A DNA stretch of 64,000 nucleotides from Deltaproteobacteria bacterium (GTDB lineage Bacteria; Bdellovibrionota; Bdellovibrionia; Bdellovibrionales; JAMPXM01): contig JAFLCB010000001.1 of assembly GCA_017302795.1 (NCBI GenBank), positions 372,001 through 436,000 of the forward strand, in the 5' to 3' direction. Of this stretch, positions 11,852 to 25,358 are shown one piece after another (position 1 is the first letter of the stretch; each line of letters begins with the position of its first letter). The notes under the pieces were generated by a model. That model was not told where the DNA came from, did no database searches, and saw only the letters and a list, made by a program, of their open reading frames with translations. A program made the translations under genes and the position numbers.

Positions 11852-12964
11852 TTGCTGAATCGGTGGCACGATTCTGAAGTGATCAATACAACTAGCACCA
11901 CCACCGCCGGCAATCCCGTTACTCCTGAACTCAACCACGAAATTCAGTCATTTCTTGGTTCGCTGATGGGAGCGGGAAAATTCGAAATCCATCCCCTAGC
12001 TGGTGATGCTTCTGCTCGGCGGTACTTCCGCGTCATAGCGCACGACGAGTCTTGGGTTTTGATGCTCTGGGACCCGTTCATCGACGACGGTCGCTATCCT
12101 TTTTTAAGTGTCAGGGCTCACTTCGAAAAACATGGCGTCGCGGTACCCAAGGTCATCGGTATGCGTCCCGAAAAGGGTTTGGTTCTTCTTGAGGACCTAG
12201 GCGATCTCACCTTAGAAAGAAAATTCTGGGAAAATCAGAACCAGGCATCAGCGATGCCGTACTATCGACAGACAATCGACGAACTTTTGAAAATGCACTA
12301 CGACGCATCCTTCGATCGGTCATCTCCATGCGTGGCGTTTACTGTTGAATTCGACACCGCCAAGCTTCTTTGGGAAATGAATTATGGACGAGAGCACCTT
12401 CTTGAGGGCCTTTGCCAAGTGAGGCTTTCGGAAGTTGAGAAAAAGGAACTTCAGACTGTTTTCACGACCATTTGTGAAACCTTGCACCGCGAACCGAAGT
12501 TTATTGCTCATCGGGATTTTCATTCTCGCAACGTAATGCTGAAACACGGACGAGTGCGAGTGATCGACTTTCAAGACGCTAGAATGGGCTCGATCCAATA
12601 CGATCTTGTCAGCCTTTTGCGGGATTCTTACGTGGATCTCAATGATGATTCGATTCAAGAACTTCTAAGCTATTATCTCGCCGGCCGCGATGAAAGGTCG
12701 AGACTGAACCCTGGTATACTCCCCTCGATTTCGCGCGATCAGTTTAACCATGTCTTTGAAGTTCAGACGGTCCAACGGTGCTTTAAAGCCTGCGGCAGTT
12801 TTGCGAGTTTCAAAATGCTTCGCAACGACACTAGGTATTTGAAGTACCTTGCGCCAACACTGAAAACTGTACGCCGCAGTCTTGGTTCGTTTCCGCAGTA
12901 CTCAGCATTTTTTAAAATCCTTGAAAGCAATGGCGTCTTTGATCAGTCATTTGACGCAAATTAG
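11852..12964 (+). CDS. amgK: Aminoglycoside-phosphotransferase-fold sugar kinase, AmgK-like
   Basis: This is a probable anomeric kinase that phosphorylates free N-acetylmuramate or N-acetylglucosamine at C1 during peptidoglycan recycling. Visible features are GDASARRYFRV (nucleotide-binding N-lobe), VLLEDLGD, the catalytic loop HRDFHSRNVML and the metal-binding VIDFQDARMG, in the order of the phosphotransferase family. It lies eight bases before a MurU-like nucleotidyltransferase gene, the same pairing as amgK-murU in Pseudomonas; this context supports the assignment more than the fold does. The start is unclear: the TTG at 11852 gives 370 residues, while a GTG at 11879 gives 361 and fits family length better. 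Other small-molecule kinases of this fold remain possible. Confidence 0.75.
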   Translation: MLNRWHDSEVINTTSTTTAGNPVTPELNHEIQSFLGSLMGAGKFEIHPLAGDASARRYFRVIAHDESWVLMLWDPFIDDGRYPFLSVRAHFEKHGVAVPKVIGMRPEKGLVLLEDLGDLTLERKFWENQNQASAMPYYRQTIDELLKMHYDASFDRSSPCVAFTVEFDTAKLLWEMNYGREHLLEGLCQVRLSEVEKKELQTVFTTICETLHREPKFIAHRDFHSRNVMLKHGRVRVIDFQDARMGSIQYDLVSLLRDSYVDLNDDSIQELLSYYLAGRDERSRLNPGILPSISRDQFNHVFEVQTVQRCFKACGSFASFKMLRNDTRYLKYLAPTLKTVRRSLGSFPQYSAFFKILESNGVFDQSFDAN

Positions 12965-12972
12965 GACATTCT

Positions 12973-13992
12973 ATGCAGGCATTTCTACTGGCGGCAGGAT
13001 TGGGTACGCGACTTCGGCCGATCACAGACGTCTATGCTAAACCAGCGGTTCCTTTTTTAAATGTCCCACTTCTCTTTTGGTCACTCGAATTAGTTCAACA
13101 GTTCAAGCCGTCCTCCTACGTGATCAACCTCCATCACCTTCCTCAAACGGTGCAAAAGCTGATGACGTCGCCAGCAGTCGCAGATCTAAAAACCTCTTGG
13201 TCCCTAGAAGCCGAAGCACCGCTAGGAAGCGGCGGAGCTCTGACGTTTGCAGGAAGCCGTGGACTACTGACTGACGAAGAGTTGATCGTTGCAAATGCCG
13301 ATGAAATTATTCTTCCGATTGATAAGATGGCTACCGCAAGGCTTTTAGAAAACCATAGACGGGGCGGAGCCATCGCTACTTTACTGACAATGAAGCATCC
13401 CGATGCGGGAACAAAGTTCGGAGGAGTTTGGCACGACGGTGCGGGATCGGTATTTGGCTTTGGACGCGATCGCGCTCTTTATCCGAAAGCAAAGGGTGCA
13501 CTTCACTATGTTGGACTCATTCTATTGAACAAAAGAGTTCTTAACTACCTACCCAAAACAGGAGAGAGCAATCTTTTGTATGACGGTTTGCTTTCAGCCA
13601 TTCAGGCAGGAGAAAAGGTCACGGCGCACGAAGAGGAATTATTTTGGCAAGAAACCGGCAACGCACATGATTTTCTTGAAGCCACTTCAGCGGCACTTTC
13701 GCTCCTTTCGCCTCTGGTCCACACAGACGCATCGGTCTTAGCGAAAAAAATCGTCTACAAGTATGCGCCCCTGGGAACGAGATACTGGCAGTCTCTATCG
13801 GGCGCGCAAATGTTGATATCCCCGATTGCTGATGGGTCGCTGAAAGAATCAGAAATCTGTGCCCACCTGGAAAAAGAAAAGGCGTTTGCCGTGATCGGTG
13901 CAAACGCCAAGATTAGATTTTCTATTTCAAACAGCGTCGTGCTTCCAAACGGTCTTGTAAATGAACCGTTGGAAGCTGAAATCGCTTACTGA
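12973..13992 (+). CDS. murU: Sugar-1-phosphate nucleotidyltransferase, MurU-like
   Basis: This NTP-transferase-fold enzyme joins a sugar-1-phosphate to UTP or another NTP. The N-terminal signature is complete (AFLLAAGLGTRLRPITD, then AKPAVPFLNVP), with LGSGGAL and a NADE metal site (VANADEIILPID). Next to the AmgK-like gene it is best read as the MurU step, making UDP-MurNAc from MurNAc-1-phosphate. At 339 residues it is about 110 longer than typical MurU. The extra C-terminal part (from about residue 235) has a pattern compatible with a left-handed beta-helix or acyltransferase-like tail, so a mannose- or glucose-1-phosphate transferase is the main alternative. It ends two bases from the convergent gene on the minus strand. 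Confidence 0.7.
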   Translation: MQAFLLAAGLGTRLRPITDVYAKPAVPFLNVPLLFWSLELVQQFKPSSYVINLHHLPQTVQKLMTSPAVADLKTSWSLEAEAPLGSGGALTFAGSRGLLTDEELIVANADEIILPIDKMATARLLENHRRGGAIATLLTMKHPDAGTKFGGVWHDGAGSVFGFGRDRALYPKAKGALHYVGLILLNKRVLNYLPKTGESNLLYDGLLSAIQAGEKVTAHEEELFWQETGNAHDFLEATSAALSLLSPLVHTDASVLAKKIVYKYAPLGTRYWQSLSGAQMLISPIADGSLKESEICAHLEKEKAFAVIGANAKIRFSISNSVVLPNGLVNEPLEAEIAY

Positions 13993-23187: not shown

Positions 23188-24318
23188 GTGAAAATGCAGG
23201 CGGGCATATTTCGGTGGCGTTTATTCGCTGCTGCGGTTTTCGTTATGTCGACAGTTTCTTTTTCGCCAATAGCTGCGTTTGGCGCAGGTGGCTTTGCGCC
23301 TGATGAATGCGCTAAGTGGTACTCTCAACTTTTTCGTTTCAACATTTTCTCTCAATCTCAATCTACCAAAAGTGTAAAAATCAAACTCGGGTCTTACGGG
23401 TCCACCTATGACAACGCATTTTTCGTCGCCGAGGAGTTGGTTCTTTCCGGCGCGAAGCCAGAATCTGTTCAAGTTGTTTTTGCTCAAAGGTTTAAAGGCT
23501 ACGATGCCTACGCATTTGTTCTTCACGACGGACAAGTTTTTGACCCAGGACAAATCAAGAATACACCCGGAAAAACAGTGAAGGTAACCGGTAAACCCGT
23601 CGCCGCATATATGAAAGATCATCCTTCTGATGAATCTGCGATCGCTGTTGAAGTGCCTGCAGAAGCGTTTCTAAAGAACTATCGAAGAATGGGCCCAACC
23701 CACTTCAAAAGTGAAAAGTTCGACGAAACTCTTGATGCAAGTTTAGGAGTTTCGCGGAGGCCGCTTTCGGAATACGAAGGATTTCGGCGATCTTCCGAAG
23801 TGGCAGCAAACACTGAAACTCGAAGCCCCAAAGCACCAAACGTTTTCCAGCGAGCGTTCGACCGAATCGTAATTCCGAATACTTCGAAAGTTTCTGTCTG
23901 TAACCTCGGAGCCGGCCATTGCTATGACACTGCCCAACTCGTAGTTGAAGCTTTAGCAAAAAAGGAAGTAAGCCCAGTCTTTGTTCGCGTTCTGTACATC
24001 AGCGATTTTGAAGGTTTTAACGCGCACGCAGTAGTTGTTCATGATGGTTTAGTTTTCGACGCATTGAAAATGTCCAATCGCTACGGCTTGAAGGACATTT
24101 CCGTGAAAGGCATTCCAATCGCAGAGTACTTTCGCAATTCCCCCAGCGCAGCCACCTCGCGAATTGTCGAATTGAGTGGAGCGGAATATCTTCAGCGCTT
24201 TCCGAATAGTGGACCCAGCCCTCTACTTCGAGAGCTCAGTCCTTCGTCTTTATCCGGGGAGCCAACGGAAAACCGTTCAATTCCACTTGATCAATATATT
24301 CGCGGCTTACCGAAGTGA
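23188..24318 (+). CDS. Secreted tandem-repeat protein, transglutaminase-like fold with one intact and one degenerate copy
   Basis: No named family is recognised. A signal peptide (residues 1-32) is followed by two homologous halves, about 42-165 and 215-340. The second half has Cys245 in GHCYDTAQLVVEAL, His280 in GFNAHAVVVHDG and Asp291 in VFDA. This is the Cys (helix start), His (strand), Asp (strand) order of transglutaminase-like cysteine enzymes. In the first half the same positions are Thr73, Tyr108 and Asp119, with identical spacing (35 and 11), so it has lost Cys and His. Enzyme activity is inferred, not shown. The start is a GTG at 23188 or an ATG at 23194; no ribosome-binding site is seen for either. 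It lies 64 bp after nagZ. Confidence 0.75.
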   Translation: MKMQAGIFRWRLFAAAVFVMSTVSFSPIAAFGAGGFAPDECAKWYSQLFRFNIFSQSQSTKSVKIKLGSYGSTYDNAFFVAEELVLSGAKPESVQVVFAQRFKGYDAYAFVLHDGQVFDPGQIKNTPGKTVKVTGKPVAAYMKDHPSDESAIAVEVPAEAFLKNYRRMGPTHFKSEKFDETLDASLGVSRRPLSEYEGFRRSSEVAANTETRSPKAPNVFQRAFDRIVIPNTSKVSVCNLGAGHCYDTAQLVVEALAKKEVSPVFVRVLYISDFEGFNAHAVVVHDGLVFDALKMSNRYGLKDISVKGIPIAEYFRNSPSAATSRIVELSGAEYLQRFPNSGPSPLLRELSPSSLSGEPTENRSIPLDQYIRGLPK

Positions 24319-24345: not shown

Positions 24346-25358
24346 TTACAATGGTTTTCGAAACCGACACATCTTCGTCCGACCGATAAGTTTCTCGGCC
24401 ATGAGTAGATTATGAGATCTGCACAATATTCGAAGGTTCGTGACATCATTCCTTCCACCCAAAGCCACCGGAATCACGTGATCCATCTGCGTTTGAAACC
24501 GCGATCCGCAACGATGACCCTCGGGCCTAGATATTCACAGGCATCGCCCGCTCGTCGTCTCACAAAGTTGCGAGTCGACGGCGCAATCGACGCGCGTCTA
24601 GCGCCAAACACCACAGTGGTGTTGCTTTGCGGCGAACCTTTGGACAGTTCACCTAAGGGTTCTATCTTCGAATGAGCAGCTACCCCGACTGATGTTTTTC
24701 CATTCGGCGTGTCGCGCGACTCCTTTTCCATCGATCGAGGTTTCACTTCGCGTCGAAGTGGATCGTTTCGGTCGAGATATTCCCTGGCTAATGCAGCGAC
24801 GATCTCGCCCAACGACGCACCGAAATTAGAATGCGATTTTAGCTCACGCACTCGCTCGAGCAGTGCGAGCTGCTCCTCTGTCATGATAATCTGCGTCGAC
24901 GCAATCTGCGAGCCAGAAAGCTGCACCGATTCTGGAAAATTCTCGGCAACTAGGCGCACAGTTTCGCGCAAAGTTTTGTTTTCTGCTTGCGCGATCATGG
25001 TCGACCGAGTCTCTAGCGACACTCTTTCGCCGGTTCGTTTCTCTTCACTGCGAATAACAGATTGAACTTTCGCAAGTGTCACCAAATTCAATCTTCCGTC
25101 TTCAATTTTTTCTGCCGCTTCCGGCACCGCACGAATCGCGCGCGCCGCCATCATCCGTCGATAGGCCGAAGACTCGCTGTAACCGAGATCCTTCACTAAT
25201 CAGTCAAAGACATTGGCATAGCCGAGTTCGGCATAAAGCCTGCGCGATTCGATTTCGCAAATGTATTCGACGATTTGTCGATCGAGCTTTCGCTCGTCGC
25301 CGCGCAAACAACGCACACCGTTTAGCAGTTCGGAATTAGATAAAGACTTTAGGTTCAT
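24346..25358 (-). pseudogene. HNH endonuclease family gene broken by a nonsense codon and a frameshift
   Basis: The reading frame starts at the ATG at 25358 behind a strong ribosome-binding site (GGCGGAGGAT) and runs MNLKSLSNSELLNGVRCLRG to ...LGYANVFD. It meets an in-frame TGA at 25200-25202 and continues at once in the same frame with LVKDLGYSESSAYRRMMAAR. TGG to TGA (Trp) would explain it. Near 24517-24525 the frame shifts by one base. The other frame then gives RCGSRFQTQMDHVIPVALGG and LRILCRSHN, the HNH nuclease core, and stops at 24346-24348. Both lesions lie before the catalytic motif, so the gene cannot make an intact nuclease. As I remember it, this family occurs in many dispersed copies in Bdellovibrio relatives; I cannot check that here. 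Confidence 0.85.

Follow-up and report, generated by a model that had tools for sequence, protein, structure and literature searches.

The open reading frame at 23188-24318 (+) of the window, the 64,000-nucleotide stretch of DNA that was analysed, encodes a predicted exported protein with two domains whose closest known family is clearly NTAQ1, protein N-terminal glutamine amidohydrolase (PF09764), as judged by profile searches and AlphaFold2 models. In human cells NTAQ1 removes the amide of N-terminal glutamine, the first step in the glutamine branch of the eukaryotic N-degron pathway. With moderate confidence we favor a reading of the tandem protein in which the C-terminal domain is a Cys-His-Asp amidohydrolase or deamidase and the N-terminal domain is its non-catalytic partner.

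The features of the gene are as follows.

23188..24318, + strand: whole gene, tandem NTAQ1-like domains, predicted exported 376-aa protein (ORF, half-to-half alignment)
23188..23283, + strand: signal-peptide-like N-terminus, residues about 1-32 (sequence inspection; AlphaFold2 helix 2-22)
23287..23790, + strand: N-terminal NTAQ1-like domain with T73 and Y108 in place of Cys and His, Asp119 and Tyr141 kept (alignment, AlphaFold2 model, structural match, conservation)
23404..23406, + strand: Thr73 (ACC), nucleophile position (half-to-half alignment, codon reading)
23509..23511, + strand: Tyr108 (TAC), catalytic His position (half-to-half alignment, codon reading)
23542..23544, + strand: Asp119 (GAC), retained (half-to-half alignment, codon reading)
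23833..24318, + strand: C-terminal NTAQ1-like domain, complete Cys-His-Asp (alignment, AlphaFold2 model, Foldseek/VIA, conservation)
23920..23922, + strand: Cys245 (TGC), equivalent to NTAQ1 Cys28 (profile alignment)
24025..24027, + strand: His280 (CAC), equivalent to NTAQ1 His81 (profile alignment)
24058..24060, + strand: Asp291 (GAC), equivalent to NTAQ1 Asp97 (profile alignment)
24127..24129, + strand: Tyr314 (TAC), equivalent to NTAQ1 Tyr111 (profile alignment, conservation)

Two halves of one exported protein

The reading frame is open throughout its 376 codons and begins with GTG, with an ATG two codons further on. By inspection, the N-terminus resembles a signal peptide that ends near residue 32 and has no lipobox. 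From this start the tandem protein is predicted to be exported, either periplasmic or secreted, which bears out the secreted protein of the original prediction.

The same prediction had proposed two repeats, and the halves do align, with a score of 177 (Z about 30); 2000 shuffles gave 29 ± 5. Identity between them is only about 29%. The duplication is considered old because the halves align strongly yet no DNA-level direct repeat is left between them. Cys245, His280 and Asp291 stand in the C-terminal copy and Thr73, Tyr108 and Asp119 in the N-terminal copy, at the same spacing of 35 and 11 residues, so that one complete set and one degenerate copy are seen, as had been described. The codons for H280 (CAC) and Y108 (TAC) differ by one base, again as first read. 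The original prediction did not mention a tyrosine common to both halves, Tyr314 in the C copy and Tyr141 in the N copy, or Cys238 and Asn76. Asn76, nearly invariant across the family, is kept in the N copy; its counterpart in the C copy is Thr248.

NTAQ1 as the closest known family

The window sequence alone found no family in Pfam, NCBIfam or the PDB. A profile of 31 domains, comprising the window domains and their relatives, matched human NTAQ1 over residues 19-180 with an E value of 2.5e-10; NTAQ1 was already the top match with a five-row profile (E 0.036). The window domains give no PF09764 match (gathering cut-off 27 bits). Individual matches to PF09764 were obtained for 8/31 family members, the best at 1.6e-5, all below the cut-off and none above about 24 bits among those listed with bits, and a separate PF09764 search of the phylum hit two members of the same family. 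Weak DUF3637 and DUF553 matches were discarded.

The catalytic triad of NTAQ1 is Cys28/His81/Asp97, with Tyr111 hydrogen bonded to Asp97 and Asp79 in contact with the substrate N-terminus (PMC4214742). The profile alignment pairs Cys245, His280, Asp291 and Tyr314 with Cys28, His81, Asp97 and Tyr111. The C domain therefore carries the catalytic Cys-His-Asp of NTAQ1, which the N domain lacks (T73, Y108). The counterpart of Asp79 is not conserved, being N278 in the window C domain and Y, N, S or A in most of the family.

AlphaFold2 modelled the C domain confidently (pLDDT mostly 82-95) and the N domain, when modelled alone, with a pLDDT of 79.8 and a pTM of 0.77. The full-length model had a pTM of 0.44 with a poorly predicted linker, and the domain arrangement that it suggested was set aside for these reasons. 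In Foldseek, NTAQ1 was the top-ranked match of both the full-length model and the separate N-domain model. Against NTAQ1 structure 4w79, VIA gave a Z score of 11.4 for the C domain (130 aligned residues, 3.6 A; next kind of structure 6.5) and 12.0 for the N domain (133 aligned residues, 3.1 A; next kind 7.1), the latter fit in part reflecting active relatives because the alignment used for modelling contained them. NTAQ1 thus leads the next kind by 4-5 Z units in both domain models, and the match spans the whole domain. Sequence comparison and structure prediction both give the two halves an NTAQ1 fold.

The predicted fold matches NTAQ1, and C245, H280 and D291 align with its catalytic residues, in keeping with the original prediction. 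The term transglutaminase-like had been applied to both repeats. It holds for the broad papain/transglutaminase-like fold class and is too unspecific for the family. The statement that no family name fits was wrong at the superfamily level, where NTAQ1 is clearly closest; the group of mostly single-copy relatives itself has no name in family databases. With NTAQ1 (PF09764; PDB 4w79, 3c9q) the window protein shares the whole-domain fold, Cys-His-Asp, the supporting Tyr and a C-terminal strand and helix. It differs from NTAQ1 in being bacterial, predicted to be exported and in tandem with a degenerate copy, and in having a shorter Cys-to-His loop, no Asp79 and a Pfam score below the cut-off.

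An alternative that we consider unlikely would make the C-terminal domain a cysteine protease or transglutaminase of the periplasm, similar to LapG and the bacterial transglutaminase-like cysteine proteinases (BTLCP; 4fgp, 4u65), rather than a deamidase. These proteins share the periplasmic location, the superfamily with its papain/transglutaminase-like core and the Cys-His-Asp order, and LapG appeared among the structural matches and weakly by profile. Its Z scores were only about 5-6 with partial coverage, however, whereas NTAQ1 ranks about 4-5 Z units higher for both domains and its match extends over the entire domain, the C-terminal strand-helix part included. With the enlarged profile, which matched NTAQ1 at 2.5e-10, LapG chains were absent from the hits up to E 1. 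Protein-glutaminase (PF18626, Gln_deamidase_2; 3a56, 2zk9) is a glutamine deamidase that bacteria secrete; it has a Cys-His-Asp core and a structural Z of 5-6, but the similarity is lower than to NTAQ1 and coverage is partial. One distant family member matched PF18626 at 2.1e-5, and a PF18626 search with the window domains gave no match.

Relatives, conservation and proposed activity

Single-domain secreted relatives, L002 and L003, were found in two genomes of the window's genus. Profile A1, built from the genus relatives, brought in two more genes, a relative from the same order (G116) and a second one in genome G002. The enlarged profile A3 had matches in 51/369 genomes of the phylum, about one in seven. 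A scan of named genomes placed members in Bacteriovoracaceae, Bdellovibrionaceae, Oligoflexia, one 'Proteobacteria' and one Candidatus Eremiobacterota record. An identical protein is encoded by L054, of a Bdellovibrionaceae bacterium, and by L039, of a genome in the window's own family, which assigns the window to Bdellovibrionota. Searches of genome contigs, viral contigs and plasmids with the window protein returned no relatives, and no plasmid carried a family relative. A match in genome G017 (L004) was rejected as a chance hit to a pyrroline-5-carboxylate-reductase-like protein.

Nearly all relatives are single-domain and predicted to be secreted; no second tandem protein was seen among the members read, and the tandem form was found in the window's genome only. 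The exceptions are fusions. L049 766-1914 (+) joins an HExGH-type metalloprotease-like region to an NTAQ1-like domain, and L035 64-2163 (+), an ORF of 700 residues, carries an NTAQ1-like domain close to the C-terminal end. In G002 the second NTAQ1-like gene, L009 1465-1914 (+), is cut by the contig end, its likely remainder being L086 on another contig. A literature search that covered few subscription journals found nothing on this secreted NTAQ1-like group.

Among 62 aligned domains, Cys was present in 57/60, His in 60/61 and Asp in 62/62, so that homologues keep Cys and His as the original prediction implied. The position of Tyr314 is Tyr in 59/62 and Phe in 3/62. Such near-invariance of Cys, His, Asp and Tyr points to selection for catalysis in the family. 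The window N domain is the only one of the 62 in which both Cys and His are missing. Two single-domain proteins, L044 1510-2097 (+) and L097 642-1259 (-), have Ala for the catalytic Cys and keep His and Asp, and are further candidate pseudoenzymes.

Cys238 lies 7 residues before Cys245, and a structural disulfide between them in an oxidising periplasm would mean that Cys245 is not the nucleophile. L002 and L003, the nearest relatives, have both cysteines, and the N domain has lost both. Most of the family, L012, L009 and L022 among them, nevertheless lacks Cys238, whereas Cys245 is nearly invariant and, placed where a helix begins, lines up with NTAQ1 Cys28, which makes the disulfide highly improbable.

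The window C domain departs from the family at Thr248, where 58/60 have Asn, and at Leu293, where a second Asp stands in 47/62. The Cys-to-His spacing is 35-39 in L002, L003, L022, L034 and both window domains, 44-69 elsewhere in the family and 53 in NTAQ1; the short spacing of the window's subgroup implies that the loop with the usual Arg is absent. In the tree the two window domains form a group of mixed support (96/44) next to L002 and L034, which fits a duplication within the window's lineage without proving it.

These departures raise the alternative that both domains are non-catalytic, forming a binding module descended from an enzyme with the C-domain triad as a remnant. The family Asn, the second Asp and the loop are gone from the C domain, Cys is replaced in L044 and L097, and the window genome's single-domain gene is broken. 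On the other hand, C245, H280, D291 and Y314 are all retained in a protein whose halves are so divergent, and L002 and L003 keep the triad at the same short spacing. We regard this alternative as improbable and favor catalysis by the C domain.

By sequence and prediction, the C half keeps Cys-His-Asp and the Asp-supporting Tyr, and the N half keeps the fold, Asp and Tyr without Cys and His. The exported two-domain protein would have arisen when an NTAQ1-like domain was duplicated in tandem long ago. His280 and Asp291 would activate Cys245, making the C domain a thiol amidohydrolase, and Cys245 would attack a carboxamide, most likely that of a glutamine side chain in a peptide or protein. Release of ammonia and hydrolysis of the thioester would complete a deamidase reaction. 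Specificity for N-terminal Gln should not be assumed because of Thr248, the lost second Asp, the lost loop and the missing Asp79. The N domain might, with less assurance, be a non-catalytic partner that binds substrate or stabilises the protein; the roles first proposed for the dead copy, to regulate the protein internally or to bind substrate, are possible.

The phylum Bdellovibrionota includes bacterial predators, and secreted, unnamed NTAQ1 relatives in such a phylum raise the question of a role outside a cell. Quite speculatively, a secreted bacterial NTAQ1 branch, widespread in Bdellovibrionota, might deamidate Gln on extracellular, periplasmic or prey peptides, with one tandem copy in the window's lineage turned into a pseudoenzyme that controls or guides the active one. 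The tandem pair is a natural comparison of active enzyme and pseudoenzyme within one chain.

Genomic neighbourhood

The tandem gene sits between nagZ and a TonB-like gene, with nagZ/permease neighbours that are conserved across the genus. As genome G002 has the same nagZ-TonB-like order with only about 200 bases between the two genes, the tandem gene is an insertion at this place. A conserved-operon reading was dropped for this reason; the surrounding genes are a poor guide to function.

Apart from the tandem protein, no intact family member was found in the window's genome. A broken single-domain remnant (L010) lies at G000:C3 about 12774-13063 on the - strand, lacks the His/Asp-bearing stretch and has internal stops. 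A CBS-domain gene adjoins this remnant and likewise the intact copy in G002. Downstream of the tandem gene lies the ORF at 24474-25196 (-) of the window, which we take to be HNH-like by resemblance (Pfam gives no match). Its family has about 14 matches in this genome, and an ORF of this kind lies within about 1 kb of the tandem gene and of the broken remnant alike.
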